Assembly (NCBI GenBank): GCA_001464815.1
Contig: LNDW01000022.1
Coordinates: 202,290 to 266,289 of the forward strand
Reading direction: 5' to 3'
DNA length: 64,000 nucleotides
From: Betaproteobacteria bacterium Ga0077527
Lineage (GTDB): Bacteria; Pseudomonadota; Gammaproteobacteria; Burkholderiales; SG8-41
Made by a program: the position numbers and the translations under genes. Each line of letters begins with the position of its first letter. Position 1 is the stretch's first letter. Shown in pieces: positions 24,829 through 62,991 of this stretch. The notes beneath the pieces are model-generated. The model saw only the letters and a program-made list of their open reading frames with translations, had not been told where the DNA came from and did not search any database.

Positions 24829-24832
24829 GGGG

Positions 24833-28476: not shown

Positions 28477-28499
28477 TCAGATCTCCGCAAAGGGATTGC

Positions 28500-30544: not shown

Positions 30545-30562
30545 TGCGTTGCGCCTCCGGCG

Positions 30563-31558
30563 TCAGACAAAAGCTTCGCCGCCGCCGCTGGCCAGCATGA
30601 TCTGGCCCTCGTCGGCGAGGCGTCGCACCACTTTCAGGATTTCCTTCTGCTGCGCCTCGACTTCCGACACCCGCACCGCGCCCTTGGCCTCGAGGTCTTC
30701 CTTCAGCATTTCGGCGGCGCGCTGCGACATGTTGCGGAAGATCTTGTCGCGCAGTTCCTGCGAAGACCCTTTGAGTGCCAGGATCAGCGACTCCGACTGC
30801 ACTTCCCGCAGCAGGGTCTGAATCGCGCGGTCTTCCAGCGCGAGCACGTTCTCCCACACGAACATCTGGTCGACAATGCTCTGGGCCAGTTCCGCGTCGA
30901 ACTCCTTCACCGAATCGACCACCGGGGTTTCCTGGGTGTTGGGCAGGAAGTTCAGGATTTCAGCGGCGGTGCGCGCGCCGCCCATCGGCTCTTTCTTGAA
31001 GTTGCCGCCGCCTGCGAGAAGGCGCGAAAGCACATCGTTGAGTTCGCGCAGCGCCGCAGGCTGAATGCTGTCGAGGGTGGCGATGCGCAGCATCACGTCG
31101 TTGCGCAGCCGCTCGTTGAATTTCTGCAGCACCTGGGCGGCATGATCGCGGTCGAGGTGCACGAGTATGGTCGCGATGATCTGCGGATGCTCCTCGCCCA
31201 CCAGGTCGGCCACCGCACCGGCATCCATCCATTTCAGCCCGTCGATGCCGTGGTTGTCGCTGCTCTGCAGGATGCGGTCTATCAGGTTGGCCGCGCGGTC
31301 ATCGCCCAGCGCCTTGCGCAGGACCGATCGCACATAGTCGTCCGCGGCGAGGCCGATGCCGCTCTGGCTGTTGGCGTTTTCGCAGAATTCCCCGAGGGTG
31401 GTGGCGATCTGCTCGCGCGACACCGATTTCAGGGACGCCATCGCCGCGCCGATGCGCTGCACTTCGCGGGGTCCGAGGTGCTTGAGCACTTCCGCCGCCT
31501 CGTCCTCGCCCAGCGACATCAGCAGAATGGCGCTTTTCTGGATGCCCTCGTCATCCAT
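30563..31558 (-). CDS. fliG: flagellar motor switch protein FliG
   Basis: FliG forms the upper C ring, binds FliF and interacts with MotA. The 331-residue product has the N-terminal domain (IQKSAILLMSLGEDEAAEVL), the middle EHPQIIATILVHLDRDHAAQ with the EHPQ motif, and the C-terminal torque helix (MFVWENVLALEDRAIQTLLR). The start overlaps the fliF stop by 8 bases. Confidence 0.97.
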   Translation of the reverse strand: MDDEGIQKSAILLMSLGEDEAAEVLKHLGPREVQRIGAAMASLKSVSREQIATTLGEFCENANSQSGIGLAADDYVRSVLRKALGDDRAANLIDRILQSSDNHGIDGLKWMDAGAVADLVGEEHPQIIATILVHLDRDHAAQVLQKFNERLRNDVMLRIATLDSIQPAALRELNDVLSRLLAGGGNFKKEPMGGARTAAEILNFLPNTQETPVVDSVKEFDAELAQSIVDQMFVWENVLALEDRAIQTLLREVQSESLILALKGSSQELRDKIFRNMSQRAAEMLKEDLEAKGAVRVSEVEAQQKEILKVVRRLADEGQIMLASGGGEAFV

Positions 31559-33197
31559 TGCCGTTGACCCATTCCTTGACCACGTTGGCGACCACTTTCG
31601 GATCCTGGCGCGCGATCATTTTCGCGTTCTGCAGGCTCTGGTCATAGCCGGCCGCACCCAGCCGCACCGGTGAACCGTCGGGGCCGAGCTCGGTGCCTGC
31701 GGCGAGCAACGGTGAAGGCGGTGGCTGCGACAGCGTGCGCAGTGCCGGGCGCAGGATGCCGAGCAGCAGGAACAGGGCCAGCCCGCCGATCAGCAGGTGC
31801 TTGCCCATGCTTTTGGCGGTCTCGATGTGATCGGGGTTTTTCCAGAGCGGCAGTTCCTCTATTTTTTCCGGTTCGGCCACCTTGAACGGGCTGTTGACCA
31901 CCGACACCACGTCGCCGCGTTCCTTGCTGTAGCCAACCGCGCCCTGCACGAGTTCGGTGAGCTGGGCGATCTGCGCCTCTGGCAGCGGTTTGGTGCTGGG
32001 CTTGCCTTTGGCGTCGTTGACCGTCATGTGGTTCACCACCACGGCCACCGAGAGCCGCTTGACGCGGCCCATCGGCTGTTTGACATGGCGGATGCTCTTG
32101 TCGACTTCGTAATTGACCGTGGAGTCGCGGCGGGCGCCCGCGGCGGAGGCGGGGGCCGTGGCGGCGACCGCCGAGCCGGCCTGGCCAGGTGGCGCGACGA
32201 TCGGCGCCGAGGCCTGGCCCGGTGCCTGGTTGCTGAGCGCGCCCGGCACGCCGCCGGCTGCGGCCGAACCGGGGCCACTGCTTTCGCTGGTCTGCTGGCT
32301 GCGGATCGCGGCGTCGGTGGGCCGCTGGTTCGGTTTGTAGATTTCCTCGGCCTGCTCGGTTTCGGTGAAATCGATTTCCGCCGACACTTGGGCCCTGACG
32401 TTGCCGGCACCGAGCACCGGCGCCAGGATGCTTTCGACGCGGCGCAGGAAAGTCTGTTCGATCTCCTGCTGGAACTTGAGCTGGCCGGGATCAAGGGAGC
32501 GTTTCCCGCCGCTGTCGGAGTCGCCGGAGAGCAGCGTCCCGTTCTGGTCGACGATCGAAACGTTCTTCGACGGCAGGCCGGGCACGCTGTGCGAGATCAA
32601 ATGGGCGATTGCGGCCACCTGCATCGCATCAAGGTTGCGTCCGGGGTGCAGGTTCACCAGCACCGAGGCGCTGGTGCGGGGCTGCTCGCGCAGGAAAGCG
32701 CTCGGCCGCGACAGCGCGAGGTGGACACGAGCGCTGTGCACGCCGCCCAGGGACTGGATCGACCGCGCCAGTTCACCTTCCAGCGCACGCTGATAGTTGA
32801 TCTGCTCGACAAACTGGCTGGCCCCGAGTTTCTGGTTTTCCATCAGTTCGAAGCCGGCACCGCCGCTGCGCGGAAGGCCCTGACTGGCCAGCCGCATCCG
32901 CGATTCATGCAGCTGCGCCGCCGGCACCATCAGCGTGCCGTCGATGAATTTGTACGGCACGTTCATCTGCTGCAGGGCTGCGATCACCGCACCCCCCTCG
33001 CGCTCCGCGAGGTTGGCCTGCAGCACGCGGTAATCCGGGGTGCTGCTCCACATCCAGGCGCCGGCGCCGAGGGCGATCGCGACCGCAATCACCACCATCA
33101 GGCTGATTTTCTGCTGCAGGGGAATCTGCGTCAGCGTCTGCAGGCGCGGCACCAGGCCGGTGGCCTGTGCGCCGGGTGCTGTCGATTGAGCGTCCAC
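31551..33197 (-). CDS. fliF: flagellar MS-ring protein FliF
   Basis: FliF builds the MS ring, the base of the flagellum in the inner membrane. The 548-residue product has membrane segments near residues 30-50 and 455-475, ring-building domains with MRLASQGLPRSGGAGFELME and GVHSARVHLALSRPSAFLRE, and a C-terminal FliG-binding tail (QNAKMIARQDPKVVANVVKE). The start is GTG. It is the first gene of the long minus-strand fliFGHIJKLMNOPQR run. Confidence 0.97.
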   Translation of the reverse strand: MDAQSTAPGAQATGLVPRLQTLTQIPLQQKISLMVVIAVAIALGAGAWMWSSTPDYRVLQANLAEREGGAVIAALQQMNVPYKFIDGTLMVPAAQLHESRMRLASQGLPRSGGAGFELMENQKLGASQFVEQINYQRALEGELARSIQSLGGVHSARVHLALSRPSAFLREQPRTSASVLVNLHPGRNLDAMQVAAIAHLISHSVPGLPSKNVSIVDQNGTLLSGDSDSGGKRSLDPGQLKFQQEIEQTFLRRVESILAPVLGAGNVRAQVSAEIDFTETEQAEEIYKPNQRPTDAAIRSQQTSESSGPGSAAAGGVPGALSNQAPGQASAPIVAPPGQAGSAVAATAPASAAGARRDSTVNYEVDKSIRHVKQPMGRVKRLSVAVVVNHMTVNDAKGKPSTKPLPEAQIAQLTELVQGAVGYSKERGDVVSVVNSPFKVAEPEKIEELPLWKNPDHIETAKSMGKHLLIGGLALFLLLGILRPALRTLSQPPPSPLLAAGTELGPDGSPVRLGAAGYDQSLQNAKMIARQDPKVVANVVKEWVNGNG

Positions 33198-33421
33198 GTT
33201 GATGCGGCTCCGTCGGGTTCGGTGAAATCACCTGCCGGCTTTTGCGGGCGGTGGATTGACTTGCAGCGGATTATGGTCAGCCGCCGCCCCGTCCAAGCCG
33301 CAAATAAAGCGGGATTTCCCGCCGTAATTGCGCGGCCCGGGCATCGTCCCCGGTGCTACCGTTGCGGCGTTTTCTGGCGGGAAGCGCCCGCCGCAGGGAA
33401 GCAATCACAGGAGCGGTGACA
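33198..33421. promoter_or_regulatory. divergent region between fliF and the sigma-54 activator
   Basis: This 224-base gap must hold the fliF promoter (minus) and the activator promoter (plus). It has inverted repeats: GCGGGA-TT-TCCCGC near 33319 and GGCGGG-5-CCCGCC near 33376, either of which could be an operator or a hairpin. No correctly spaced sigma-54 element was found by eye. Confidence 0.4.
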
Positions 33422-34504
33422 GTGATGGAACAGGGTTTTCTGACGGAATCCGATGCCGCGGGGCAGATGCACCGTGGAGGGGGCGCCGGCGTGATGCGGG
33501 CCGAAAGCGCAATACCTGCGCAGCGCGAGTGCGCTGGCGGCGCCGCAGCCGGAGATCCGGTCGCGGTTGATCCTGCGATGCGCGCGGTGTTGACGCTGGC
33601 GCGCAAGGTGGCGCACAGCAACGCGACGGTGCTGATCAGCGGTGAAAGCGGCACTGGAAAGGAAGTGGTCGCGCGTTACGTGCACCGCTGCTCGGCGCGC
33701 GCAGGCGCTTCTTTTGTCGCAATCAATTGCGCGGCGATTCCCGAGCACCTGCTTGAGGCCACACTGTTCGGGCATGAAAAAGGGGCATTTACCGGCGCGT
33801 TGCGGGCCGCAGCGGGGAAGTTCGAGCAGGCGCAGGGGGGCACCCTGCTGCTCGACGAGATTTCCGAGATGCCGCTGTCGCTGCAGGCCAAGCTGCTGCG
33901 GGTGCTGCAGGAACGCGAGGTCGAGCGCATCGGCGGTCGCAGGCCGGTACCGCTGGATGTGCGGGTCATCGCCACCACCAACCGCCAGCTTGAGGAGGAA
34001 GTCGAACTGGGCCGGTTCCGCGAGGATCTGTATTACCGGTTGAATGTGTTTCCGCTGCATGTGCCGCCGTTGCGGGAGCGGCGGGCCGACATCGTACCGC
34101 TGGCCGAGACCTTGCTGGGGCGCATCGCCTGCGAGGAGGGCGGCCGCCATGTCGAGCTGCACCCCCGGGCCAAGGCGAGCCTGGAAGCCCAGGACTGGCC
34201 CGGTAATGTGCGCGAACTGGCCAACGCGGTGCAGCGCGCGCTGATCGTGGCGCCGGGCTCGCAGATCGACGACATTCACCTGCGCGCGCTGTCACCGGCT
34301 GAGCCTTCCCGCGTTGCCGCCGGGGTGCCCGCGCGCGAATGCAGCGCCAACACCGCCAGCATCAAGGCCGTCGAACGCGACCTGATTCTGCGCACACTGG
34401 CCGCGGTCAATGGTTCGCGCAAGCTGGCGGTGCAAAGGCTCGGCATCAGCGAGCGCACACTGCGCTACAAGCTCCAGCGCTATCGCCTCGCCGGAGTGAT
34501 GTGA
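33422..34504 (+). CDS. sigma-54-dependent transcriptional activator without receiver domain
   Basis: A 360-residue regulator of the NtrC/FlrC/FleQ class. The AAA+ domain spans about 45-280 with Walker [10 protein letters not shown] near 75, the sigma-54 contact motif GAFTGA near 121, Walker [13 protein letters not shown] and an arginine-finger region ([20 protein letters not shown]). A Fis-type helix-turn-helix ends the protein ([20 protein letters not shown]). Only about 45 low-complexity residues precede the AAA+ domain, so there is no receiver and no FleQ-type N-terminal domain. GTG 33422 is chosen for an AGGAG site 8 bases upstream; ATG 33425 is the alternative. Its place next to fliE and fliF suggests control of flagellar genes. 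Confidence 0.9.
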
Positions 34505-34529
34505 CGCGATTACGGGAAAGGATGTTGCG

Positions 34530-34853
34530 ATGAATACACGAAGCATCGATCAGTTGCTGGCGCAGATGCGCACCGCTGCCGCGATGGCGGGCAACCGTCC
34601 TGCCGCACCTTCCGCCACCGCAACCCGTGGTGAAGGGTTTGCCGACGCACTGAAAGGTGCGCTGGTGCGCACCAACGAAACCCAGCAGCAGGCTCGAGCC
34701 ATGGCGCGCAGTTTCGAACTCGGCGCGCCGGACGTGCAACTGCACGATGTGATGATCTCGTTGCAGAAGGCCAATATTTCGTTCCAGCAGACCGTGCAGG
34801 TACGCAACCGCCTTGTCGCCGCCTACCAGGAAATCATGAACATGCAGGTCTAG
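34530..34853 (+). CDS. fliE: flagellar hook-basal body complex protein FliE
   Basis: FliE joins the MS ring to the rod and is the first exported rod component. The 107-residue product has the family C-terminal segment VMISLQKANISFQQTVQVRN followed by RLVAAYQEIMNMQV. fliE normally heads the fliFGHIJ operon; here it is on the other strand, separated from fliF by the regulator gene and 26 bases downstream of it. Confidence 0.96.
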   Translation: MNTRSIDQLLAQMRTAAAMAGNRPAAPSATATRGEGFADALKGALVRTNETQQQARAMARSFELGAPDVQLHDVMISLQKANISFQQTVQVRNRLVAAYQEIMNMQV

Positions 34854-35054
34854 TGCCTGAACAGAATCATCGCGCGGGCTCGTGGCGAATCAAGCGCGCA
34901 CGCTAAAACGGCTGCCGTCAATCGACGCGGCGCACCCGGAGGGCTGCATTCCCGCAGCTCTGCACAGTCATTCCCCTTGGTTTGTTGTCACTAAAAATTC
35001 AATTAAAACAATTACTTGAAACAAATTCCTGGGGTGCGATACAAGCGGCCGGAC
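34854..35054. other. convergent intergenic region with AT-rich patch
   Basis: fliE and ycgR converge on this 201-base stretch. An imperfect hairpin (GGGCTGC-6-GCAGCTC, near 34940) could act as a terminator, but no T-run follows. An AT-rich patch at about 34980-35030, odd for this GC-rich genome, contains AAAACAATTACTTG. No gene was seen. Confidence 0.4.
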
Positions 35055-35825
35055 TCATGTCAGAGAACCACTTCGGTCCTTTAAAAACCGTTGCTGCTGC
35101 ATCACGTAGCGTTCGAGCACAATCCGCGCCCGATCCGGCAGCACCAGGAATTTCCAGCCGTAGCGGCGCAGGCGCCGGCCGTTGGCCAGCGTGATCTCGA
35201 AGGTGTTGCGCAACTCCACATCGACGCGCACCACGTCGCCCTCGGGCAGGGTGATCACTGCATGAAAGCGCGAAAGGGACTCGAGCGGAGGCAGTTCGGA
35301 TTCCGCGCTGGCTGCGAAACCGCCGGCGCTGATGTCCGCGATATGCAGGTTGTGGGTGGTGCCGCCGTCATCATCGACCGGCGTGATGGTGCATTTGAAC
35401 GGTGAGGAAATCGGCGTGGCAAGGCGGAAGTACTCGCGCCGCTGCAGCCTCAGCAGGCGTGCTGGCAACGACAGTTGGAGGGCTTCGCGCCCATCGTGGC
35501 TGGCGCGGCGCGGCGTGCCGGTCACAAACTGGATCTTGACCTTGTCGAGCGAGGTCACGCAGACCAGGCGGTCTGCGCGCAGCAGGCGTTCGTTGACCCG
35601 GGGATCGGGGCCGCAATCGAGGAGCAGCCGGTCCGTTGCCGCCTCGACCGCGAGGATGGCGGTGAGCAGGGATGCGTTGGCGGCATCAAAATAGGCCGAT
35701 ACCAGCGATTTTCCGGTCATCACGTCGCGCAGGATCGAGGCGATTTCCAGGCGCGAGTGGACATGGTAATCACTGTCGTCGTCGGCCCCGCTCAGTTCGA
35801 ACCGGGGTTCGGGTTGGCGTTGCAT
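35055..35825 (-). CDS. ycgR: YcgR-type PilZ flagellar brake protein
   Basis: YcgR binds c-di-GMP and slows the motor by acting on MotA or the C ring. The product is about 256 residues, with an N-terminal YcgR domain (EIASILRDVMTGKSLVSAYF) and a C-terminal PilZ domain holding both c-di-GMP motifs: RLQRREYFR (RxxxR) and DISAGGFA (D/NxSxxG). The start is uncertain: ATG 35825 lies after the fliT stop, while TTG 35855 would overlap it by 4 bases (TTGA). Neither has a strong ribosome site. It follows fliS-fliT on the same strand. Confidence 0.92.
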   Translation of the reverse strand: MQRQPEPRFELSGADDDSDYHVHSRLEIASILRDVMTGKSLVSAYFDAANASLLTAILAVEAATDRLLLDCGPDPRVNERLLRADRLVCVTSLDKVKIQFVTGTPRRASHDGREALQLSLPARLLRLQRREYFRLATPISSPFKCTITPVDDDGGTTHNLHIADISAGGFAASAESELPPLESLSRFHAVITLPEGDVVRVDVELRNTFEITLANGRRLRRYGWKFLVLPDRARIVLERYVMQQQRFLKDRSGSLT

Positions 35826-35851
35826 GTTGCGTTGGCGTTGCTCGTGTCCGC

Positions 35852-36202
35852 TCAAGCCATGCTGCCCGCCGCATACGCGTCGCGCAGCAGCCTGTTGCGC
35901 TGGGTTCCGCCCAGCCACTGCTCGAGATCGGCGAGCCGCGGCTCGACCAGGCGGCGGATGACCGCGTCATCGGCGAGGATCTGCAGGATCAGCGCAGCCT
36001 TGCGCTCCAGCACTTCGGGCGGATGCTGCGGCCGTGCCGCTTCCTCGTCGGCGACCAGCTGCTCAAAAATGCCGCGGCAACCGGCCTCGATGCCGACCAG
36101 CTGCTCCCAGCATCCGGCCTGTGCGGCCGCACGCATTTCCGCGGTGAGCTGGGCCACGAGTTCGTAGCGTTCGATGATGCCGGGCCGTCCAGTGCCGCTC
36201 AT
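35852..36202 (-). CDS. fliT: flagellar export chaperone FliT
   Basis: FliT is the chaperone of the cap protein FliD. The 116-residue product is helical, with IERYELVAQLTAEMRAAAQA at the N-terminus and a C-terminal helix with PRLADLEQWLGGTQRNRLLR. Such proteins are weakly conserved, so the call relies on size and position after fliS. The start makes an ATGA overlap with fliS. Confidence 0.87.
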   Translation of the reverse strand: MSGTGRPGIIERYELVAQLTAEMRAAAQAGCWEQLVGIEAGCRGIFEQLVADEEAARPQHPPEVLERKAALILQILADDAVIRRLVEPRLADLEQWLGGTQRNRLLRDAYAAGSMA

Positions 36203-36615
36203 GCCGCCCCCTGCATCCGCGCCGGCACGGTCTTGCCCATCTGCGCCCAGGCTTCGCGCAGTTCGCCGAGTAACTGATGCACCTCGGCGAGCGGAGCATC
36301 GCTGCCGCCGAGATTGGCTTTAAGCAACTGTGTGCGCATGTAGTCGTAGAGAGAGGCCAGGCGTTCGGCGAGTTCGCCGCCGGCGTCGCGGTCGAGGCTG
36401 GCCTTGAGGCCGTTCTCGATGATGGCGATGCTTTTGGATATCGAGGCGCCGCGTTCAGCGATACGGCCTTCGGCGAGGTGGCGGCGCGCATCGTTGATCG
36501 AGATCATCGCGCCGTCAAACAGCATCAGCACCAGCTGGTGCGGGTCCGCCGACTCGACTCCGGTTTCAACGCCGATGGTCTTGTATGCGCTCAGGGCGCG
36601 TTGGGTGCCGTACAT
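36199..36615 (-). CDS. fliS: flagellin chaperone FliS
   Basis: FliS binds the C-terminus of flagellin and keeps it unfolded until export. The 138-residue product has the family signatures ALSAYKTIGVETGVESADPH, QLVLMLFDGAMISINDARRH and ASLYDYMRTQLLKANLGGSD. It overlaps fliT by 4 bases and follows fliD by 20. Confidence 0.96.
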   Translation of the reverse strand: MYGTQRALSAYKTIGVETGVESADPHQLVLMLFDGAMISINDARRHLAEGRIAERGASISKSIAIIENGLKASLDRDAGGELAERLASLYDYMRTQLLKANLGGSDAPLAEVHQLLGELREAWAQMGKTVPARMQGAA

Positions 36616-36635
36616 TGAAGCCTCCGCGGGTTCGG

Positions 36636-38585
36636 TCAGGTGTTGGAATTACTGCTGCCGGGCATTCTTGCCAGTTGCTGGGTGAGGAAATTGCTGGTGC
36701 TTCTGAGCCTGCTGATCAGTGTGTCCAGCGCGCTGAACTGGGTGCGGATGCGCACCTCGGTATCGGCCAGACGGTTGTTCAGGCGCGTACGCTGCGCGGC
36801 AATCTCCTGGATCGACCGGCTCAGCCCGTCGGTGCGGCTGTCGAGCCCGCCGTTCTCCGCAAGCAGCCGCGAAGCAACGCGTTCCAGTGTTACGGCATAA
36901 CCTTCCGACAGGTTTAGGGTTGCCGCAGGGACACCCTGTGGCGGTGCGCTGCTGCCGGTATGACGCACCACCAGTTCGTCGGCGGGCGCGCCGGCTGCTG
37001 CGCGCAGCATCTGCCCGTTGCCGGTTGCGGCGACGGTGGTGCCGTTGAGCACGAAGAATCCGGCGACATCACTGCCAGTGGCAGCGGTACCGGTGTTGTA
37101 GCCCAAAGCCGAAAGCGCGCTGCCGTCAAGCGCGGTCACCGCCGACGCCGAGCCATAGCGTTCGCTGGCGATGCGCAGCCGGCCGCCGTCAAGGCTGACA
37201 ATTGCCCTGGCATTTGCGCCGGCAAGGGGTGCCGCCGCATTGAGGGCGCTTTGCAGCGTGGCTGCAAGCTGCGCCGGGGTGTAGCTGCCGTGGGGGATGC
37301 TGAGCGTGCCGCTGGCGGTGCCGTCGAGGCTGAGCGAAAGGGTGTTGTTGCTGCTGTCGATGATGGTGGTTGGCGCCGCTGCGTTGGCGGCCAGCGCGTT
37401 GGCACGTGTGGCCGGTGCGGTGATTTGCACCGCGTATGCGCCGGGCTGGCTGGCAGCCCCGGAACTGACGAACTGGACCGGATCTGCACTGCTGCGTCCG
37501 CGCAGGGCAAACAGCGATGCGATGTCATCCGGGCTTGAGGAAATCGCAGCATTGAGCCTGGCGGCATCGAGAGTGAGCCGGCCGTTGCGGTCGAATTCGA
37601 CGCCGATCTGCGACAAGCGGCTCAGCTCACCGGAGACGCCGGCGAGCGCGCTGCCCGCCGCGGCGCGTAACTGGTTCTGCACGCTGATCGCGGTCGAATT
37701 GCCGACCAGCAGTCCGCCACGGCCTGTGGCGGCGTTGTAGGCGGTGAGCGTGGCCGCCGTTGAAGACAGGTCGTTGTAGGACTTGACGAAGCCCTGCACT
37801 GCAGTCTGCAGCTGCGCTGTGTCGCGGCTGACGCTGACCGTGGTGCTGCCGGTGGCGTTCAGTGTCAGTGTGATGCCGGGTATGGCGTCGGCAAGCTGGT
37901 TGGTGGCGCCGGAAATGGCGACGCCGTTGACGGTGATGCTGGCGTTGACCGCGGCCTGGGCTTCGGTGACGCCGTCGAGTGCGTCCTTGAGCACGCCCGC
38001 CGACAGCGTATGTGCCAGTGTGATGGTGTTTGCCGTGCCGCCGCGAGCGGCGGTGAGCAGCAGACGGAAGGGGGTGGCGCTGCCATCGTTGACGATGGTG
38101 GCTTCGACATCGTCCTGAGCGGCATTGATCGCATCACGCAGGCCGGAGAGCGTGTTGTTGGTGGCGTCCACAGTGATGCTATGCAGGGCTCCGCTGCCGA
38201 TCTGCAGCGTGAGGCTGCCGCTGGAGCCCGCTGCCGTGGAACTGGCCAGTCCCTGCGCCTGCAGCACCTGCGGTACCGCCAGGGCGCCGACATTGACCGA
38301 ATAATTGCCGGCGGCGGCAGTCCTTGCCGCCGTGGCGGCAAGGACTGCCGGATTGCCGGTCTGCACCCGGAATGATTCGAAGCGGCCGGTATCGCGCAGG
38401 CTGCCCATGGCACCTTGGAACGCGGCGACCGCACCTTTGAGGCTGCCGAATGCCGTGAGCTGGGCCTGGAACGCAGCCTCGCGGCTGTCGAGCTGGGCCA
38501 GCGGACGGCGTTCGAGGGCCATCAGTTGGGTAACGATGGAATTGACGTCCAGATTGGAGCCAATTCCCGGAGATGAAAGTGCCAT
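36636..38585 (-). CDS. fliD: flagellar cap protein FliD, long form
   Basis: FliD (HAP2) caps the filament tip and folds incoming flagellin. The N-terminus (SPGIGSNLDVNSIVTQLMAL) and the C-terminal helix pair (FSALDTLISRLRSTSNFLTQ) are typical. At 649 residues it is well above the more usual 430-500. The middle has flagellin_IN-like repeats and a long Thr/Ala/Gly-rich variable region. A sigma-28-like promoter lies just upstream. fliS and fliT follow on the same strand. Confidence 0.95.
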   Translation of the reverse strand: MALSSPGIGSNLDVNSIVTQLMALERRPLAQLDSREAAFQAQLTAFGSLKGAVAAFQGAMGSLRDTGRFESFRVQTGNPAVLAATAARTAAAGNYSVNVGALAVPQVLQAQGLASSTAAGSSGSLTLQIGSGALHSITVDATNNTLSGLRDAINAAQDDVEATIVNDGSATPFRLLLTAARGGTANTITLAHTLSAGVLKDALDGVTEAQAAVNASITVNGVAISGATNQLADAIPGITLTLNATGSTTVSVSRDTAQLQTAVQGFVKSYNDLSSTAATLTAYNAATGRGGLLVGNSTAISVQNQLRAAAGSALAGVSGELSRLSQIGVEFDRNGRLTLDAARLNAAISSSPDDIASLFALRGRSSADPVQFVSSGAASQPGAYAVQITAPATRANALAANAAAPTTIIDSSNNTLSLSLDGTASGTLSIPHGSYTPAQLAATLQSALNAAAPLAGANARAIVSLDGGRLRIASERYGSASAVTALDGSALSALGYNTGTAATGSDVAGFFVLNGTTVAATGNGQMLRAAAGAPADELVVRHTGSSAPPQGVPAATLNLSEGYAVTLERVASRLLAENGGLDSRTDGLSRSIQEIAAQRTRLNNRLADTEVRIRTQFSALDTLISRLRSTSNFLTQQLARMPGSSNSNT

Positions 38586-38602
38586 GGCTGCGCTGCGACC
38601 GT

Positions 38603-38640
38603 TTTCAGGTGGCTTCCTGTAGTTAACGGCAGCCTTTACA
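38603..38640 (-). promoter_or_regulatory. sigma-28-like promoter before fliD
   Basis: On the minus strand the flaG-fliD gap reads TAAAG, 15 bases, then GCCGTTAA. This is the same -35 box, spacing and -10 box as the upstream of the two sites before flgM. FliA control of fliD is well known in other bacteria. Recognition is by eye. Confidence 0.6.
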
Positions 38641-38647
38641 GCAAGCT

Positions 38648-38968
38648 TTATGCCTGTTCGCGCACCAGCAGGCTTTGCAGCCGGTCGATGGCCTTGGTGA
38701 TTGCCAGCGCCTCCTCACTGGGCAGTTGCCGGATCACCTGGCGGGTTTTCGCATCGATGACCTGCACCACGGTGCGGCCCGAATGGGGGTCGGTCAGGAA
38801 CTGCAGGTTGCTGGATACCGCATCAAGCGCGTTGCGCGCCGCGCGGCTGGCCTGGAGCAGCAAAGCCGCGGTGTCATTCGCGACGCCTCCCGGCCTCGCG
38901 CTGGCGGGTTCGGCGACACTGCCGGCCTGATTCCAGAACGGGCCATTACGATTCGTTTCCACTCGCAT
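38648..38968 (-). CDS. flaG: FlaG family flagellar protein
   Basis: FlaG proteins are small proteins encoded beside flagellin and FliD that affect filament length. The 106-residue product has the family core LQFLTDPHSGRTVVQVIDAK followed by TRQVIRQLPSEEALAITKAI. It lies between fliC and fliD on the same strand. A GGAGG ribosome site precedes its ATG. Confidence 0.93.
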   Translation of the reverse strand: MRVETNRNGPFWNQAGSVAEPASARPGGVANDTAALLLQASRAARNALDAVSSNLQFLTDPHSGRTVVQVIDAKTRQVIRQLPSEEALAITKAIDRLQSLLVREQA

Positions 38969-38992
38969 GACGGCCTCCTGTCAAAACGGACA

Positions 38993-39016
38993 CCCGGCCG
39001 GCGGATGCCGGCCGGG
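38993..39016 (-). terminator. fliC terminator hairpin
   Basis: A perfect 10-bp stem (CCCGGCCGGC / GCCGGCCGGG) with a 4-base loop lies just after the fliC stop on the minus strand and is followed by TGTCCGTTTT. This fits a rho-independent or RNA-stabilising hairpin between fliC and flaG. Confidence 0.75.
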
Positions 39017-39045
39017 GTCTGTCCGGTGCTGCTTTTGCGCGGGGC

Positions 39046-40446
39046 TTAGCCGCGGAGCAGGGCAAGCACGTTGTTGGGCAACGCATTGGCCTGGGCCAGA
39101 ATCGCAACGCCGGCCTGTTGCAGGATCTGCGCCTTGGTCATCGACGCTGTCTCCGCGGCGAAATCCGCGTCCTGGATCCGGCTGCGGGAGGCCGTGAGGT
39201 TTTCCGTGGTCGTCTGCAGGTTCGACACGACCGAAGAAAACCGGTTTTGCAGTGCACCCAGTGAAGCGCGCGAGGAGTTGATCGAAGTCAGGGCCGCATC
39301 GACCGAGGCCAGCGTCGTGTTGGCACCGTTGACCGTTGCTACCGTGACGTTGGACAGCGCGGTCCCTGACAGGGCGGCCGTGGTGGTGGCCGCGGTGAAA
39401 CCGGCATCCGTTGGCGCCGTGCCGCTGATGGTGATGTTCTGGCTGGCAGCCAGCGATACCGTGCTGCGGGTTGTCGCCGCTGCGGCGACACCGGTCAGGG
39501 TGGCGTTGAATGTGCCGGTGGCCTGGGTGAATGAGTGGGCAATGTTGCGGCCATCGGCTGCGACGAGATCGATGCCGGTGCCATCGTTGACGGCGGTCAC
39601 ACCGGTGGCCGCGCTGATTGCGTTGATGGCTGAGGTCAGGGAAGCGCGGTCTGTCGCGGCACCGGCGCCGATGGTGATCGTTCCAGTGGTGTAGCCGTTG
39701 ATCGTCAGCGTGCCGGTGCCAGCCGTGCCGCCGTCGGTGGTGCCGCCCGAAACCGTGAGGCTGTTGGCGGTGGCAGTCACCCCGTGGCCGCCAATGGCGT
39801 TGATCGCTGCGGCAACCGAACGCGCATCGTTGGTGCCGATGGCGCCGATATCAACGCCGTTGATCACCAGATCGCCTGCGGCGATGGCATTGCCAGTAAC
39901 CACGCCGCTGGTGACCGAGGCCGAGAAGCTGGCGCCAAGGGAGGCGGTGCGCGCGCTGGAAATCGATGACACCGTGATGGTCTGTCCGGCATCGGCGCCA
40001 ACCTGGAATGACTGGGACGAGAAGGTGCCATCCAGCAGCTTGACTCCATTGAAGCCGGTTTGTGCTGCAACACGGTCAATTTCAGCCACGAGATCCGCAA
40101 CTTCCGATTGCAGCGCCGCACGGTCAGTAGTGCTGTTCGTGGCGTTGGCGGACTGCACAGCCAGTTCCCGGATGCGCTGCAGGTTGTTGGTGATCTCGGT
40201 AAGGGAGCCTTCCGCGGTCTGGGCCAAGGAGATGCCATCGCTGGCATTCCGGGCGGCCTGGTTAAGACCTCGGATCTGCGCGGTGAATCGCTCCGAGATC
40301 GCAAGGCCGGCGGCGTCGTCCTTGGCGCTGTTGATGCGCAGACCGGTGGACAGGCGCTGCAGGGCAACGTTGAGCGAGGACTGCGAGCCGTTCAGGTTGC
40401 GCTGCGCATTGAGCGAGGCAATGTTGGTGTTGATGAATTGGGGCAT
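39046..40446 (-). CDS. fliC: flagellin FliC
   Basis: Flagellin is the filament subunit. The 466-residue product has conserved N- and C-terminal D0/D1 domains: [57 protein letters not shown] (the TLR5-recognition region in other flagellins) and [20 protein letters not shown], ending [12 protein letters not shown]. The centre (about 150-370) is variable, Thr/Gly/Ala-rich, with flagellin_IN-like repeats. A strong GGAAGGAG ribosome site precedes ATG. No good sigma-28 -35 box was found upstream, only a GCCGTTCA near 40480. It is the only flagellin seen in the window. Confidence 0.97.
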
Positions 40447-46080: not shown

Positions 46081-48222
46081 TCAGGCGCGGGTGGCCTGGG
46101 TGCGCGGAATGATCAGGCCGCAGCGATTGGTAAGGAAACGGTCCATGTCATCCATCGGCAACGGCCTGCTGATCAGGTAACCCTGCATCAGGTCGCAGCC
46201 GTTGGTGGCCAGGAACTCGGCCTGCGCGCTGGTTTCCACGCCTTCGGCGACAGTCAGCAGGCGCAGGCTGTGCCCCATCGCGATGACCGCGTGGGTGATC
46301 GCCACGTCGTCGGCATCCGCCGGCACATCCTTTATGAAGGAGCGGTCGATCTTCAGGGTATCGACCGGAAAACGCTTCAGGTAACCCAGTGATGAGTAAC
46401 CGGTGCCGAAATCATCGATCGCGAGTTTGACTCCAACCGCGCGTAGCTCGTGCAGGATCGCCGCCGCGCGGTCGGGGTTCTCCATGACCATGCTTTCGGT
46501 GATTTCCAGCTCCAGGCATTCTGGCGCTAGACCGGTGTCCTCCAGAATGTGACGCACATCGGCAACCAGTTCACTCTGCGCGAACTGCCGCGGAGAGAGG
46601 TTCACCGCCACCCGGAAACCGGGCATGCCACATTCCTGCCAGCGTTTTGCCGCGATGCAGGCCCGCATCATCACGATGCGGCCGATCGGCACGATGAGGC
46701 CGGTTTCCTCGGCAAGCGGGATGAACTTGTCGGGCTGCATCATGCCCATGCCCGGATGATTCCAGCGCAGCAGTGCTTCGGCGCCGACCAGCCTTCCGTT
46801 TCCGACCTCGACCTGAGGCTGGTAATGGATCAGGAATTCATCCAGCTCGATGGCGCGGCGCAGGAAACGTTCGAGCACGACGTACTCGAAGGAGCGTGCG
46901 TTCATCTGCGGCGAGTGGAACTGGAAATTGTTCTTGCCCTGGTCCTTGGCGCGGTACATCGCCAGCTCGGCATTGCGCAGCAGCGCGGTGGCGTCGGCGC
47001 TGTCGCCGGGGAAGGTGCTGATGCCGATGCTCGCCGAGAGGTGGTATTCCTCGCCGTTCAGTCGGTACGGCTGGTCGACCGCGGCGAGCACGCGTTTGGC
47101 GGCGGCGCGCGCCGCATCGGCGTCGTCAATGTCACGGATCAGCGCGGCAAACTCGTCGCCGCCAAAGCGCGAAATGATGTCGGTTTCGCTGAGGCACTGG
47201 CGCAGCCGCGCGGTGACCTGGCGCAGTACCTCGTCGCCGGTGTCGTGGCCAAGCGTGTCGTTGATCAGCTTGAAGCGGTCGAGGTCGATCAGCAGCACGG
47301 CCAGCGGCTTTTTGCTGCGACCGGCGTCGATCAGGGCCTGTTCCAGCAGCTGGCGGAACAGCAGGCGGTTGGGCAGTCCGGAGAGTTCGTCGAAATGCGC
47401 GAGCCGCCACATCTGCTCCTGCGAGTTGAGCCGCTCGCTGATGTCGCGCACCACCACGGTGGCGCGGCGTGCACCGTTGAGCAGCATTCTGCCGGCATGG
47501 ATTTCAACCGGGATCATGGTGCCGTCGCGGGAGCGGGCATGGGTCTGCAGGCTTGCCGGCGGAGTCTGTTCGACTTCACCCGAGCAGAACAGGGATTCCC
47601 AGAACGCCGCGGTGTGCGTGTTTGACTGAAGCAGGTTTTCGATCGGTACGCCATCCAGCTCGGAGGCGTCGCAGCCGAGCATCCGGCACAGCGCGGGATT
47701 GGTGAATTCGATGATGCCGCCGATGGTCACCACAACGATGCCGTCAGCCGCGGTGTTGACGATGGAATCGAGCAGGGCTTCCTTGGCCTGCAGGTTGCGG
47801 CTGGCAACACGGGCGGAGCGGCGCATCCGCGCCTCCTCCATTTCGCGAACCACCACTGCGCCGAGCCGGCGCAGGTTCTGTTTCATCACGAAATCCTGCG
47901 CGCCGTTACGCATCGCAGCGACTGCTGTTTCTTCGCCGATGGCTCCGGAGACGATGATGAAGGGCAGGTCGGCGTCATGGGCGCGTACCATGTAAAGCGC
48001 CGACAGGCCGTCAAACTGCGGCATGCTGTGATCGCAGAGCACCACATCCCATGGGCCGTGCCCGAGTGCGTCACTGAGGCCCGAGCGGCTCCATACGCGG
48101 GTGTGTTCGATGTCGAGTTTCGCGCTGCGCAGCGAGGCAAGTACAAGCTCGGCATCGGCTTCCGTGTCCTCGACCAGCAGTATGCGGATGCATTGCTGTT
48201 CCCCGACCGCGGCGGCGCTCAT
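46081..48222 (-). CDS. REC-PAS-GGDEF-EAL protein
   Basis: A 713-residue c-di-GMP enzyme. Domains in order: receiver (IRILLVEDTEADAELVLASL, VVLCDHSMPQFDG), PAS at about 150-270 (NTAADGIVVVTIGGIIEFTN), GGDEF at about 280-445 with RFGGDEFAAL, and EAL at about 450-705 with GAEALLRWNHP and the EITESMVMEN and DDFGTGYSSLGYLKRFPVDT motifs. The GGDEF lacks an RxxD I-site (SETD instead). Both catalytic signatures look intact, so it may make or degrade c-di-GMP depending on its receiver. ATG 48222 has an AGGGAG site. Confidence 0.94.
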   Translation of the reverse strand: MSAAAVGEQQCIRILLVEDTEADAELVLASLRSAKLDIEHTRVWSRSGLSDALGHGPWDVVLCDHSMPQFDGLSALYMVRAHDADLPFIIVSGAIGEETAVAAMRNGAQDFVMKQNLRRLGAVVVREMEEARMRRSARVASRNLQAKEALLDSIVNTAADGIVVVTIGGIIEFTNPALCRMLGCDASELDGVPIENLLQSNTHTAAFWESLFCSGEVEQTPPASLQTHARSRDGTMIPVEIHAGRMLLNGARRATVVVRDISERLNSQEQMWRLAHFDELSGLPNRLLFRQLLEQALIDAGRSKKPLAVLLIDLDRFKLINDTLGHDTGDEVLRQVTARLRQCLSETDIISRFGGDEFAALIRDIDDADAARAAAKRVLAAVDQPYRLNGEEYHLSASIGISTFPGDSADATALLRNAELAMYRAKDQGKNNFQFHSPQMNARSFEYVVLERFLRRAIELDEFLIHYQPQVEVGNGRLVGAEALLRWNHPGMGMMQPDKFIPLAEETGLIVPIGRIVMMRACIAAKRWQECGMPGFRVAVNLSPRQFAQSELVADVRHILEDTGLAPECLELEITESMVMENPDRAAAILHELRAVGVKLAIDDFGTGYSSLGYLKRFPVDTLKIDRSFIKDVPADADDVAITHAVIAMGHSLRLLTVAEGVETSAQAEFLATNGCDLMQGYLISRPLPMDDMDRFLTNRCGLIIPRTQATRA

Positions 48223-48514
48223 CGCCAACTCCCTGCAGCGCATGGGCAAAAGCATGCGTCGCCCGGCATGGTGCCTGCGTGTGATGGTGTCTGCGGCCGT
48301 TGCATGATCAGAGTTTGCAGTCTGCGTCTCGCAAAAATGACGTTCCGCGGCGGATGCCGCGCAGTGTCCTGTTTACGGTGGCGGGTGCGCCGGGCTTTAG
48401 CGGGGAAATTCAGCCGAAACCGGATGATCGCCTGCTTCAGGGCTGACCCTATCACACAAGTAATTGTTTTAGATAAGAATTTTTTAGGTTTTGGGCCGGC
48501 AATGCCGCCGGGAT
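48223..48514. other. intergenic region with AT-rich patch
   Basis: About 290 bases between spoT (stop at 48515) and the REC-PAS-GGDEF-EAL start, both minus strand. An AT-rich patch at 48452-48490 probably contains the promoter of the latter, though exact boxes are not clear. Its CAAGTAATTGTTTT (48457-48470) is the reverse complement of a 14-base sequence at 35005-35018. Confidence 0.4.
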
Positions 48515-57744: not shown

Positions 57745-58440
57745 TCAGCGCTTGCGGAACAGCACATCCCACACGCCATGGCCCAGGCGCAGTCCGCGCG
57801 CCTCGAACTTGGTCTGCGGCCGGTAATCGGGCCGTGCCGCGAAGCCGGCGGTAGTGTTGGCGAGTGCCGGTTCTGCGCCGAGTACGGCGAGCATCTGTTC
57901 CGCGTATTCCTGCCAGTCGGTTGCGCAATGTATGTAGCCGCCGCTTTTCAGGCGCGAAGCGGCGAGCGCGACGAAGGGTCGCTGGATCAGCCGCCGCTTC
58001 TGCTGGCGTTTTTTCGGCCAGGGATCGGGGAAAAAAATATGCAGGCCGTCGAGGGACTCCGGCGCGATCATCCGCTCCAGCACCTCGACCGCATCATGCT
58101 GGATCACCCGCAGGTTGGTGATGCCCGCGGCATCGATCTGCTTGAGCAGGCTGCCCACGCCGGGGGTATGCACTTCGATGCCGATGTAGTCGATGTGCGG
58201 ATGTGCGGTGGCGATGGCCACCGTGGTTTCACCCATGCCGCAGCCGATTTCGAGCACCCGCGGTGCGCGGCGGCCGAACAGCGCGTCGAGGTCGGGCACA
58301 GTTTCGGCCGCGGTTTCGACCGCACTATCGACATAAGGCAGGCCGTACTTCGGCATCAGGTTGTCGTGGGCGCGGCGCTGGGCGTTCGAAACGCGCCCCT
58401 GGCGCAGCACATAGCTGCGGATCGGGCGGGCAATATTCAT
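57745..58440 (-). CDS. trmB: tRNA (guanine-N7)-methyltransferase TrmB
   Basis: TrmB methylates G46 of tRNA using SAM. The 231-residue product has the SAM motif [15 protein letters not shown], the family motif [20 protein letters not shown] and the C-terminal [22 protein letters not shown] 58440 begins with [17 protein letters not shown], a usual start; longer frames run into the upstream repeats. It is on the same strand as thiS, thiG and the large coiled-coil gene. Confidence 0.96.
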
Positions 58441-58467
58441 CGCCGCGGAGTTTACCGGGAAAAGCGC

Positions 58468-58570: not shown

Positions 58571-61500
58571 TCAGCGCGCGGGCATGTCCTGCGGTGCGAG
58601 CAACTGGTGATCAAGGCGCAGCGAAACCGCGCTGCCGTTGCCGAACAGCAGTGGCTGCGGCAATAAGGCCTGCTGCAACGGCATCTCGTCGCGCGCCGGT
58701 GCGAGCAGCAGGCTGCCCGCGGTCCAGGCCGCGATCATCGCCGCAAGCGCCCAGGCCGGCGCCGGACCGCGCAGCCAGTGGCGGCAGCGTCCGGCCCAGG
58801 CCGCGCGCCGCGCGATGCCGGCGGCGCGGCGATCCTGACGGGCTCGAGCCTGCATCACCAGCGCATGATCAAAATCAGCGGCGGTTCTCGCCTGCGCGGC
58901 GTTCGCCGCGGTGATGACCGCAGCGGCCGCCGCGCGGGCTGCCGCAGCACCTTGCGTTTCTGCATCCAGCAGCGCGCGTGCCGCGGCGGCGGCCCGCTCG
59001 TTGTGTTCAGCGCGCTGGCGTTCCTGTTCCGCGGTTTCGGCTGCTGCCGTGGCGCGGCTGAGTGCCAGTTGCTCGGACCGTTTTGCCGCGGCTGCGGCTG
59101 CGGCCCCGGCGCGGGCGCAGGAGTCGAGGGCCGCGGCTTCGTTGCGGATGCTGGCGCAGCGCGCGGCATTGGCGGCGGCCAGCGCCAGGGCCGTATCGCT
59201 GCGGCGGCGGTCGGCATCGCAGCGTTCGCGCAGCGCGGCGATGGCTTTTTGCTCCGCGACCGCACGGGCCCTGGCCGCGGCAATGTGCTGCTGCTGCGCG
59301 TGCAGGGCCTCACTGTCGCGTGCAAGTTCGTCCTCGGCCAGATTTGCCGCAGCCTCGGCGGCCGCGGCCTTCCCGCTGGCGACGGCTTCCCGCGCGATCA
59401 CCGCCTGTTCGCGGCGGCGGGCCGCTGTCGACGCGGCGAGTTCCGCGGCGGCCAGCCGCTGCAGAGCGGCGCCTAGATCCTGTTCGGCGTTGTGGCGGGC
59501 GCGTGCCGCGGCGATCAGGCGCTGCTGCTGTTTTGCGCGGTGTTCGGCGGCGCTGCGTGCCTGATCATGCGCGGTGACGGCGGTTTCGATGGTGGCGGCG
59601 AGCACCTGCTCCGCGGCGGCGCGTTGCGCGGCTTGCCGGCTTGCCGCGTTTTCCATGTCGCGGCGCAGCTGTGAAGCCTGCGCCGCAGCGGCATCAGCCT
59701 CGGCGCGTAATCCCGCGGCACGCGCGGCCTCGGCCTCGCGGCTGGCGCGCGACAGGGCCAGTATCGCTGCCTGCTCGTCGGCGCGTGCGCGTTCGGCCGC
59801 CTGCCGTGTGGCCTCGGCGTCGGCGAGCGCGTGCTGGTGCGCGAGCTGTTCGGCGCTGCGCTCTGCGGCAATACGTCGCTGCCGGGCTGCGGTGGCGTCC
59901 TCCCCGGCCTGCGCGCGGGCCGCGGCCTGGGCGGCGAGGGTTTGCTCGGCTTCATGGCGGGCCGCTGCCGCGCGCTGCAGGCGCCGCTCAGCGGCGATAC
60001 GCGCGGCGGTGGCTGCGGCGGCTGCCGCATCCGCGGCGGCGCGTTCCTCGCTGGCACGCCGGTATTCGGCGAGTTGCAGTGCATGGGTCTTAGCCGCCTC
60101 CGCGGCCTTGCGGTCGGCTTCGGTTTTTTCGCGTAATGCTGCGGCCTCACGCCGGTTGGCCGCGGCATGGCCGGCGGCGGTTTGCGCGGCTTCAGCTTCG
60201 GCGGCTGCACGGGCTTCGGCGCTGCTGATCGCGTCCTGCTCATCGCGGATACGCTGTTCGGCCAGTTGTCGTGCGCGTTGTTCGGCTTCGATGCGTGCAA
60301 GGGCCTGCTCACGCGCCAGGAGTTCGTCGCGGCTGCGTGCCGCGGCTTCTTCGGCAGCGCGGTTTTCGGTCTCGGTGCGGGCAGCCGCCGCGGTCGCGGC
60401 CTCCTGCTCGATCCGAGCACGTTCGCTGCTGGCGGTGGCAAGGCGGTGGTCTTCGATGGCGCGGGCCTGGATTTCTGTTTCGGCGGCGACCGCTGCGCGC
60501 TGACGCGCCTCAGCCGCGTGCTGCGCGAGGCGTTCGGCGCCGGCCAGCGCGGCGGCGGCGCGTGCGGCTTCGATGTCGATCGCGGCGCGCGCCTCGGCTT
60601 CACCGCGCGCTTCGGCTTCGGCGGCAACACGCGCCTCGGCGGCGCGCATGGCCTGTTCCGTGGCGCGATTGCGCGCGGTGGTGACTTCGGCGGTCAGGCG
60701 TTCGAGTTCGGTTTGGGCTGCGGCAAGGCGTGCTGCTTCCTCGTCGGAGGCCTGGCGCTGTTCTGCCGCGTGAGCAGCCGCGGCATCGGCCGCAGCGCGT
60801 GAACGTGCGGCCTGCAGCGCGCGGCTTTCGGCCTGCACCCGTAATTCGGATTGCTCGAGCGCGCTTTGCTCGGTTTCGGCGCGCTGTTCGGCGAGTACGC
60901 GGTATTCCTGCTCCGCGGCGGTGCGCGCAGCGATGGCTTCGCGTTCGGCGGTTTCGGCGCGGCGCCGGGCTTCGGCTTCGGCGGTTTCGCGGACAAGCAA
61001 CTGACGACGCGCTTCGAGTGCGGCAGCCTTGCCGCGTTCGGCTTCGGCCTCGCTGGCGGCGGCCGCGGCCAGTTCACGCTCCAGCCGCAGCCGGGTTTCG
61101 TGTGCGGCGCGTGCGCGGGCTTCGGCTGCGCTGCGGGCTTCGGCTTCGGCTGTCGCGGCCAGCTCGGCACGCTGGCGGGCTTCTAGTTCGGCGGCGGCGG
61201 TGGCTTCGGCATCGCTGCGCGCCCGGGCCTGCGATGCCAGACGGTGTTCCGCGTCGCCGCGGTTTTGCGCCTGCTCGCGGGCATCGGTTTCGGCCGCGGT
61301 TCGGGCCTCGGCGGCATTGCGCGCGCGGACTTCAGCTTCAGCGCGGGCACGCGCCTCGGCGGCCGCTGCCTGCTCGGCGGCAAGGCGCGAGCGCGCCTGG
61401 CTTTCGGCGCGCGCCTGTTCTGCGACGCGCGCGGCTTCGGCGCTGCGTACACCCTGCAGCAATTCGGCGAGTATGCGCTGGTGGTCTTCAGCGCGGGCTC

Positions 61501-61987
61501 TCGCCTGGGCTTCGAGTTCGGCCTTGGTTTCGGCGAGCTTGCGCAGCGCCTGTTCGCGTTGCGCGGCTTCGCGGGCGGTCGCCGAGAGTTGTTGTTCGAC
61601 AGCAACGCGCGCTTCAGCCTCGCGTGCGGCTTCTGCTTCACTGGCGCGGCGTTGTTCGAGCAGGGTGGTCGCGCTGCGTTCGGCTTCGGCGCGGCTGCGT
61701 GCTTCGTCCGCGGCGGCGGCATCCGCGGCGGCGCGGTCACGCGCGGCTTCGCGGGCTTCGATCTCGGCCTGCAGACGCGCTTCTGCCTGGGTGCGGCTGC
61801 GTTGTTCCCAGTCGATGCGGGCTTCGCTTTCGATACGCGTCTGGTATTCGGCGCGGGTGCGTGCAACGGCCTCCTTGATCGCAAGCAGTTGCGGCGAGTC
61901 TGCTTCCGCAATCAGCTCGGTTGCGGACTGAGATGCGGACTGAGATGCAGGCTGCAGCGTGTCGGCGTTGGGCAGTGGGGCATTCAT
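58571..61987 (-). CDS. giant Ala/Glu/Arg-rich helical repeat protein with C-terminal membrane anchor
   Basis: A 1138-residue protein of no family that I recognise. Residues 1-39 are a Ser/Gln/Ala-rich lead. Residues 40-1065 split exactly into 73 units of 14 residues, except for one 4-residue slip (AESQ, 194-197). A typical unit is [14 protein letters not shown]. In the 41 units at 226-799, position 4 is Arg in 34 and position 8 is Glu or Asp in 35 (hand count). Later units are more diverged. After GRCRHWLRG there is one membrane helix (about 1079-1096) and a 42-residue tail; the basic residues before the helix suggest the repeat rod is cytoplasmic and the tail periplasmic. It lies between thiG and trmB. 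ATG 61987 is chosen; a longer frame to 62071 exists. Confidence 0.85.
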
Positions 61988-62187: not shown

Positions 62188-62991
62188 TCAAGGCTTGCCG
62201 ATCATGCCGCCGGTGGGCGAACTGGGCGAGGCCGAATACAGTTTTTTCGGCATGCGCCCGGCACGGAAGGCGGCCCGGCCCGCCCGCACCGCCAGGTTCA
62301 TCGCTTCGGCCATCAGCACCGGCTGCTTCGCCGCGGCGACCGCGGTGTTCATCAGCACCGCGTCACAGCCCAGCTCCATCGCGATCGCCGCATCCGATGC
62401 GGTGCCGACGCCGGCATCCACCACCACCGGTACTTTCGCGTTGTCGATGATGATCTGCAGGTTCCACGGATTGAGGATGCCCATGCCGGAGCCGATCAGC
62501 GAGGCGAGGGGCATCACCGCGATGCAGCCGATCTCCTCCAGCTGTTTCGCGATGATCGGATCATCCGAGGTGTAGACCATCACCTTGAAACCGTCCCTGA
62601 CCAGGGTTTTTGCCGCGGCCAGGGTCTCGACGACATTGGGATACAGCGTGTGCGGATCGCCGAGCACCTCGAGTTTTACTAGGTCGTGGCCATCGAGCAG
62701 TTCGCGTGCGAGGCGCAGGGTGCGCACTGCTTCATCGGCGCTGTAGCAGCCGGCGGTGTTGGGCAGCATGGTGTATTGCGAGGGCGGCAGCGCATCGAGC
62801 AGGCTGGGTTCGTTCGGGTTCTGGCCGATGTTGGTGCGGCGGATGGCGACGGTGACGATCTGCGCGCCGCTGGCATCAACCGCGGCGCGGGTTTCGGCGA
62901 AATCCCTGTATTTGCCGGTGCCGATCAGCAGTCGTGAGTTGTAGGTCTTGCCGCCAAGGATCAGCGGATCAGGGTTTTCGTTGGGTTTCAT
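62188..62991 (-). CDS. thiG: thiazole synthase ThiG
   Basis: ThiG forms the thiazole ring of thiamine from DXP, dehydroglycine and ThiS-thiocarboxylate. The 267-residue product has [40 protein letters not shown] with the expected Schiff-base lysine (K of VKLEV), and [20 protein letters not shown]. It lies 41 bases downstream of thiS. Confidence 0.97.

Follow-up and report, generated by a model that had tools for sequence, protein, structure and literature searches.

What does a cell do with a protein that is almost wholly one long repeat of a 14-residue unit, and does the length of such a rod matter? The question is raised by a single gene, hereafter the rod gene, in a 64,000-nucleotide stretch of contig LNDW01000022.1 from Betaproteobacteria bacterium Ga0077527 (the window, numbered from its first letter). 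A first-pass annotation, made from the letters alone, had described in-register 14-residue units followed by a membrane helix and had suggested a membrane-tethered cytoskeletal rod, a tether or a ruler. We analysed the window protein together with its relatives in the same order, which are cited below by G labels for genomes and L labels for loci. The repeat is real and is retained in the relatives. As to function, we give about an even chance to the reading that the protein is a coiled-coil cytoplasmic arm by which signalling machinery related to motility is tethered at the inner membrane.

The 14-residue register and its two shifts

The rod gene occupies 58571..61987 on the minus strand, with its ATG at 61987 and its stop at 58571, and encodes 1138 amino acids plus the stop. 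The minus-strand frame is uninterrupted, and a plus-strand reading from 58571 contains several stops. When the gene is compared with its nearest relative, the ratio of nonsynonymous to synonymous substitution rates (dN/dS) is 0.14 across 818 codons; for thiG it is 0.10 across 265. The rod gene is under purifying selection and is therefore not an open-frame artefact.

By a pooled model for which 12 members of the family served as training set, the in-register span covers residues 36-1060 (58808..61882, minus strand), that is, 1025 residues or 73.2 units; the earlier count had been 73. Autocorrelation of residue classes, which had been proposed as a check, gave peaks for Arg, acidic residues and Ala with z values of 6-9 at lag 14 and of 4-10 at lags 28, 42 and 56 relative to shuffles. 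A 14-phase hidden model gained 338 nats, period 7 gained 174, and periods 11, 13 and 15 gained 87, 103 and 104; the gains of 208, 258 and 417 nats for periods 18, 21 and 28 were obtained with more parameters. Within the 41 units of residues 226-799, Arg stands at position 4 in 34 and an acidic residue at position 8 in 35, reproducing the earlier counts exactly. Because Tandem Repeats Finder detected no period-42 array within the rod gene, we consider that the register is kept at the level of the protein.

The register shifts twice. The 4-residue slip described in the first-pass annotation exists as a stutter within residues 163-190 (61418..61501, minus strand), but the model places it near residue 178 (176 in a model built on the window protein only) instead of residue 194, as the earlier units implied. 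The annotation had also held that no other residues are gained or lost, and in this it overlooked a 7-residue half-unit shift within residues 877-918 (59234..59359, minus strand; model point 905, or 899 in the own-only model). Over residues 906-1060, the phase shifted by seven scores 47.6 nats and the continued phase -3.2. The corresponding part of the rods of G011, G014, G049, G040 and G029 has the 7-residue shift as well.

A probable double heptad suited to a coiled coil

An AlphaFold2 model favours helix at residues 32-870 and 877-1071, which supports the helical rod proposed earlier, although at low confidence (mean pLDDT 62, from a 4-sequence alignment), and it is silent on the oligomeric state. 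The charge pattern fits the i to i+4 salt bridges that had been suggested: opposite charges are spaced in this way 120 times versus about 55 in shuffles, and like charges 13 times versus 54. The rod contains 33% charged residues and 37% Ala, with a net charge of -11 over 1024 residues. A hydrophobic period of 3.5 was the top peak between 3.3 and 3.9 in the window protein (5.2, weak), G040 (4.5) and L085 (14.6), and L111 peaked at 3.51 (12.6). Composition-corrected conservation between the window protein and that of G014 is highest at position 11, followed by 14, 4 and 1.

On such patterns, an a/d/e core for the 14-residue unit is favoured, though not proven. The unit would be a double heptad in which, taking position 4 as heptad a, position a is Arg4/Ala11, d is Ala7/Ala14 and e is Ala1/Glu8, and every second heptad would carry an Arg-Glu layer able to form i to i+4 salt bridges. 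The chains would probably pair as a coiled coil, with the 4-residue stutter about 10 units from the N-terminus. Of the 56 slips decoded across the family, 4 extra residues account for 14, a shift of 7 for 19, a shift of 6 (equal to 8 extra) for 13, and other sizes for the remaining 10. We counted the 46 of the first three kinds toward a coiled coil, but the slips are common to close relatives and hence not independent.

A membrane helix and a shared tail motif

The single C-terminal membrane helix with a short tail noted in the first-pass annotation is found at residues 1078-1096 (58700..58756, minus strand; Kyte-Doolittle 1.70). The 25 residues preceding it include 7 basic and no acidic residues, so that the basic side is that of the rod, and by the positive-inside rule the rod side is probably cytoplasmic. 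The tail, which would then be periplasmic, carries an 11-residue motif at residues 1120-1130 (58598..58630, minus strand). By a cut of our own, a membrane helix followed by a tail is present at the C-terminus of 26 of 44 rods, and the tail usually contains phi-[SQ]-L-[RK]-[LM]-D-x-[ED]-L. The first count of the motif is post hoc, as the motif had been spotted by eye. A later, pattern-free motif search over 20 tails, namely the 26 minus 6 close copies (g11, G049, G029, L082, L085 and L086), gave a log-likelihood of 184.5 versus 98-112 in 12 shuffled sets. The motif of the window protein scored 13.3, and the tails of G040, L047, L114 and L048 fit poorly (below 10).

A rod family scattered through the order

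A profile of the N-terminal ~230 residues (E 1e-5) found the rod in at least 43 of 399 genomes of the order, belonging to 17 of 158 genera; this is a lower bound because the search scored at most 7 candidates per genome. In a class-wide sample of 369 genomes, of which three other listed ones are from the same order and about 365 from other orders, only the genome of the window matched at E 1e-8, a cut passed by 33 of the 43 order matches and failed by 10, including G068, which is itself in the class sample. The window protein had no Pfam family at E up to 10, no NCBIfam match at E up to 1 and no plasmid or phage match at E 1e-3, and a phmmer search of PDB sequences, with matches allowed up to E 1, returned nothing but two phycocyanin matches (E 0.17). 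Searches of open-licence papers gave no description of such a rod family.

We fetched the regions for all of the 43 matched genomes other than that of the window. For basic and acidic residues alike, 14 was the best period between 5 and 21 in 23 of 23 relatives and in 10 of 11 further open reading frames, the remaining one, L038, having it for one charge class only. Complete rods among 39 decoded proteins range from about 39 to 112 units, and the broken L082 has 33. The slip of 4 extra residues recurs about 10 units in, at residues 148-207, in 12 of the 39 decoded rods (the window protein, L081, L084, L085, L089, L090, L091, L092, G049, G040, G029 and L047). The rods of genus g24, from 10 genomes, have 38.6-40.2 units and no slips.

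We considered the matches with HD-GYP domains (G028, G034 and G044) and that of G026 as possible composition matches and rejected this view. All 43 genomes are counted because the 14-residue period is present in L104 (G044), L107 (G026), L116 (G028) and L118 (G021), each time together with a membrane helix and a tail. The other match in G021, an AsmA-like protein at L038:5261-8887, has mixed periods and was excluded, G021 being counted through L118; this AsmA-like protein has a long Ala/Arg/Glu-rich linker with a mixed 8- and 14-residue period. A rod frame in L097 (G327), at the contig start, runs into tandem pentapeptides of the QSMNE type where the contig stops.

Joint occurrence of rod and flagellum

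The rod of the window's genus is situated between thiG and trmB. A protein search of the 21 genomes of the genus gave five matches, of which the window's own genome, G006, G011 and G014 are rod carriers; the fifth, in G017 (E 4e-5, with internal stops), was discounted and counted as an absence. ThiG was found in 19 of the 21 genomes. Among the 18 other thiG regions, 15 have thiG and trmB adjacent with no space for a rod gene and 3 contain the rod. The rod gene of G006 is split over two contigs.

FliM is present in six genomes of the genus (the window's own, G006, G007, G011, G014 and G016), that is, in 4 of 4 rod carriers versus 2 of 17 non-carriers (Fisher test, 0.0025, uncorrected for kinship), and rod and FliM agree in 19 of the 21. 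In a FastTree of ThiG plus TrmB, the window's genome with G006 (support 1.0) and G002, G011, G012 and G014 (0.993) form separate groups, and genomes with neither rod nor FliM branch between the carriers as well as next to them; support for several inner nodes is low, and the placement of G016 is poor. The thiG-trmB site also holds a rod in two other families, represented by G198 and by G076 with G203. Because the carriers separate on the tree and other families share the site, the distribution would suit repeated joint loss of rod and flagellum. The copy of G198 (L046:6423-8900) shifts frame near its C-terminal part, and G198 has no listed FliM match; the copy of G203 is broken. The frame damage in both could be either assembly error or decay.

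Over the whole order, FliM was found in 267 of 399 genomes, in 36 of 43 with a rod versus 231 of 356 others (Fisher test, 0.008, with kinship ignored and assuming that the rod and FliM searches drew the same 399 genomes). Without the HD-GYP matches, G026 and G021, the proportion is 34 of 38, and 34 of 39 when G026 is kept.

The neighbourhoods of the rod genes vary. In genus g24, the rod directly follows fliR in the flagellar operon in 9 of 10 matched genomes (L049, L050, L094, L096, L098, L100, L101, L109 and L110, with L099 as the exception). A partial protein after fliR in G032 is rod-like; it has 219 residues, with charge periodicity beyond lag 2 at lag 56 only. Three of seven genomes searched in genus g2 have rods (G049, G040 and G029), each after a regulator of ~744-764 amino acids. 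By Pfam this regulator is a response regulator-PAS-GGDEF-EAL protein, as assigned for G049 only, and beyond it lie cheA and cheZ in G049 and G040. A PAS/GAF-GGDEF-EAL gene is upstream of the rod in L106 and L111, and in L081 and L103 an HDOD gene adjoins it with a hybrid kinase gene near. The rod of L105 neighbours guaB and guaA, and the neighbour tested at L089 had no Pfam match.

Three loci, L104, L116 and L117, encode fusions in which the rod comes after response-regulator and HD-GYP domains. The fusions of L104 and L116 also end in a membrane helix and the tail motif, and that of L117 is cut by the contig end. These fusion loci are L104:8141-11047, L116:7256-11254 and L117:3605-6218, the rod being the C-terminal part.

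Indels and the number of units

The first-pass annotation had read the preserved register as selection on length register, with a ruler among the possible functions. In 19 chosen rod pairs of 49-87% identity, the 14,836 residues aligned contain 13 net gap events, of which two are net zero, three are whole units (14, 14 and 84) and eight are of other sizes (3, 3, 3, 12, 18, 24, 29 and 143), with one of the 3-residue gaps counted in two pairs. The window protein and that of G014, about 50% identical over 1002 rod residues, differ by one 3-residue gap near residue 806 and by balanced small gaps near 885; the rods of G011 and G014, at 87% identity, are one 3-residue indel apart. Among six g24 pairs of 53-82% identity, the rods of five align without a gap.

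As a control, three pairs of SMC proteins from the same order were compared over residues 160-1010, a span chosen by position and including the hinge. They showed 2 gap events in 2,548 residues, both in the hinge, at 72-78% identity, which is above that of many rod pairs. Because the coiled-coil parts of SMC are equally indel-poor, the low indel rate is a general coiled-coil trait and no evidence for a ruler. Selection on the length register is supported in that the relatives retain 14 as the best period with few indels. The ruler is weakened by the SMC control and by the number of units, which, when checked in the homologues as had been advised, varies widely between lineages, from about 39 to 112.

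Surroundings of the rod gene in the window

The upstream gene at 62188..62991 (minus strand) we take to be thiG (NCBIfam gave just weak matches to other families); trmB lies downstream at 57745..58443 (minus strand; TIGR00091, E 4.1e-53). Between the rod stop codon and trmB is a 21-base tandem repeat of 3.6 copies with 92% match over 58460-58535 (feature 58460-58551). The N-terminal head of the rod protein, residues 1-35 (61883..61987, minus strand), is largely non-helical in the AlphaFold2 model and varies among homologues. Its coding sequence contains a perfect 12-base repeat of 2.2 copies at 61922-61948, and the head of the nearest relative has a 4-residue insertion.

A flagellar gene cluster on the same contig, at 121..40446, fills much of the window. 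Pfam identified motA, flhB, flhA, fliR, fliM, fliF, fliD and fliC; the cluster includes flg genes, and its remaining names are presumed from gene order and look. A response regulator-PAS-GGDEF-EAL protein encoded at 46081..48255 (minus strand) has the domain composition seen in the product of the gene immediately before the G049 rod.

Function and rival explanations

For the tethering arm we propose that one helix would fix the rods to the inner membrane and that the short periplasmic tail motif would be a docking peptide. The rod would tether and space chemotaxis and c-di-GMP (cyclic di-GMP) enzymes, perhaps near the flagellar base or pole. What the analysis observed is the period, the family with its architecture, the stutter and the tail motif, the neighbouring genes, the signalling domains fused to some rods and the co-occurrence with FliM; the coiled-coil state, topology, tail docking, partners and tethering role are what we infer. 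An arm or scaffold that is anchored in the membrane and serves motility and c-di-GMP signalling is the most economical account.

Several observations weigh against it. As regards the protein, 18 of the 44 rods, including all 10 of genus g24, are without the C-terminal helix plus tail, although some of these are cut by contig ends. The 3.5 hydrophobic peak is weak in the window protein itself (the 5.2 given above) and absent in L094, the sole g24 rod among the five members tested. Positions 9 and 10 are also fairly well conserved between the window protein and that of G014. As regards the genomes, the rod of the window lies outside the flagellar cluster, between thiG and trmB. Within the genus, G016 has FliM without a rod and is a real exception; G007 has FliM and no rod was found, in a genome 79% complete with no thiG match. 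Two of the three other-family genomes with a thiG-trmB rod, G198 and G203, are without FliM, and the case for joint loss is weaker for it. Of the 43 rod genomes, just 16 have a neighbour or fusion of the motility or signalling kinds named above, most other neighbours having been compared only with a small labelled set or not named. FliM is absent in seven of the 43 rod genomes (G026, G034, G044, G198, G203, G264 and G428), four of which (G198, G203, G264 and G428) are scored so since they are not among the listed FliM matches, and three of the seven belong to one genus. The flagellum therefore cannot be the sole partner and, since the heads differ too, a broader signalling-scaffold role is as likely as a strictly flagellar one. 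In an extended form, which we consider somewhat unlikely, the family would be an unnamed modular device: a double-heptad rod that grows or shrinks in evolution mostly by whole units or heptads and is held by a membrane helix together with a docking peptide in the periplasm. It would be an exchangeable arm that places different signalling heads (response regulator-HD-GYP, or chemotaxis and GGDEF-EAL partners) ~80-235 nm from the anchor, a lineage-specific distance that assumes a fully helical rod, and it would be co-inherited with the flagellum in some lineages.

Alternatively, paired rods could lie side by side in membrane-attached filaments that shape or stiffen the cell, as an intermediate-filament-like cytoskeletal protein would, making the link to motility indirect. 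A long helical rod with a 4-residue stutter does recall crescentin and intermediate filaments as described in PMC10873595, and the regular 14-residue charge pattern with a near-zero net charge (-11/1024 residues) would permit side-by-side packing. However, the stutter lies near the N-terminus instead of in the C-terminal half, the protein is anchored through a helix at its C-terminus, response regulator-HD-GYP heads occur at three loci, and neither Pfam nor PDB sequences gave a crescentin or filament match; we regard this explanation as unlikely. A molecular ruler or spacer, in which the unit count would determine a fixed distance from the membrane through either a coiled coil or a single stable helix, appears quite improbable to us. 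Between lineages the number runs from ~39 to 112, SMC proteins are equally indel-poor, and the other net gaps (3, 3, 3, 12, 18, 24, 29 and 143) are not multiples of 14, even though the g24 rods keep a nearly constant number (38.6-40.2 in 10 genomes) without slips, 5 of 6 g24 pairs are gap-free and, across the family, whole units account for three of the net gaps (14, 14 and 84).

More doubtful still is the explanation that the motility link is a by-product of kinship or genome type and that the rod serves a general function at the envelope or pole, such as a tether to a periplasmic partner of the tail motif. The seven rod genomes without FliM and the variety of loci (thiG-trmB, guaB-guaA and others) would be expected on this explanation, but in 19 of the genus's 21 genomes rod and FliM are either both present or both absent, and several kinds of neighbourhood together with the fusion point to motility or c-di-GMP signalling. 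The 14-residue unit, the recurring stutter, the tail motif and the fused c-di-GMP domains offer experimental handles on how signalling enzymes are placed away from the membrane and on whether rod length matters, and the motility link can be tested in the one genus where rod and flagellum are missing in parallel.

Comparison with known systems

Long coiled-coil scaffolds organise bacterial cell poles, and to our knowledge few families of them are known. TipN-like polarity proteins resemble the proposed arm as membrane-anchored coiled coils tied to flagellar placement, but TipN is alphaproteobacterial and has its membrane helices near the N-terminus. With single alpha-helix (ER/K) proteins it has in common the many i to i+4 salt bridges (120 versus ~55 expected), but only 33% of its residues are charged and 37% are Ala, and the hydrophobic 3.5 period is present in 4 of 5 members tested, though weakly in the window protein and G040. 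The window protein is about twice as long as crescentin.

The stutter of crescentin and intermediate filaments is one of four extra residues, and the likeness to the window protein is that of a long helical rod with a 4-residue stutter (PMC10873595), the heptad signal of the window protein being weak. According to PMC10873595, crescentin depends on its first 27 residues for membrane localisation and has its stutter in the C-terminal half, whereas the window protein has a C-terminal membrane helix, an N-terminal stutter and a strict 14-residue unit. No crescentin or filament family was matched in the Pfam and PDB sequence searches.

Vibrio HubP is described as an inner-membrane protein that crosses the membrane once, has a very long stretch of repeats in the cytoplasm and is linked to flagella and chemotaxis arrays (PMC8789113). 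On that description, the window protein resembles HubP/FimV in its one membrane helix, its long repetitive and probably cytoplasmic part and its partial link to flagella or chemotaxis. It differs in that the order of the parts is reversed and that its repeat is of Ala/Arg/Glu with a period of 14. Pfam, at E up to 10, gave no LysM or TPR/FimV region in the window protein, and its C-terminus is the membrane helix with the tail. We therefore file it as a kind of long bacterial coiled-coil scaffold that belongs to neither the HubP/FimV nor the crescentin family.

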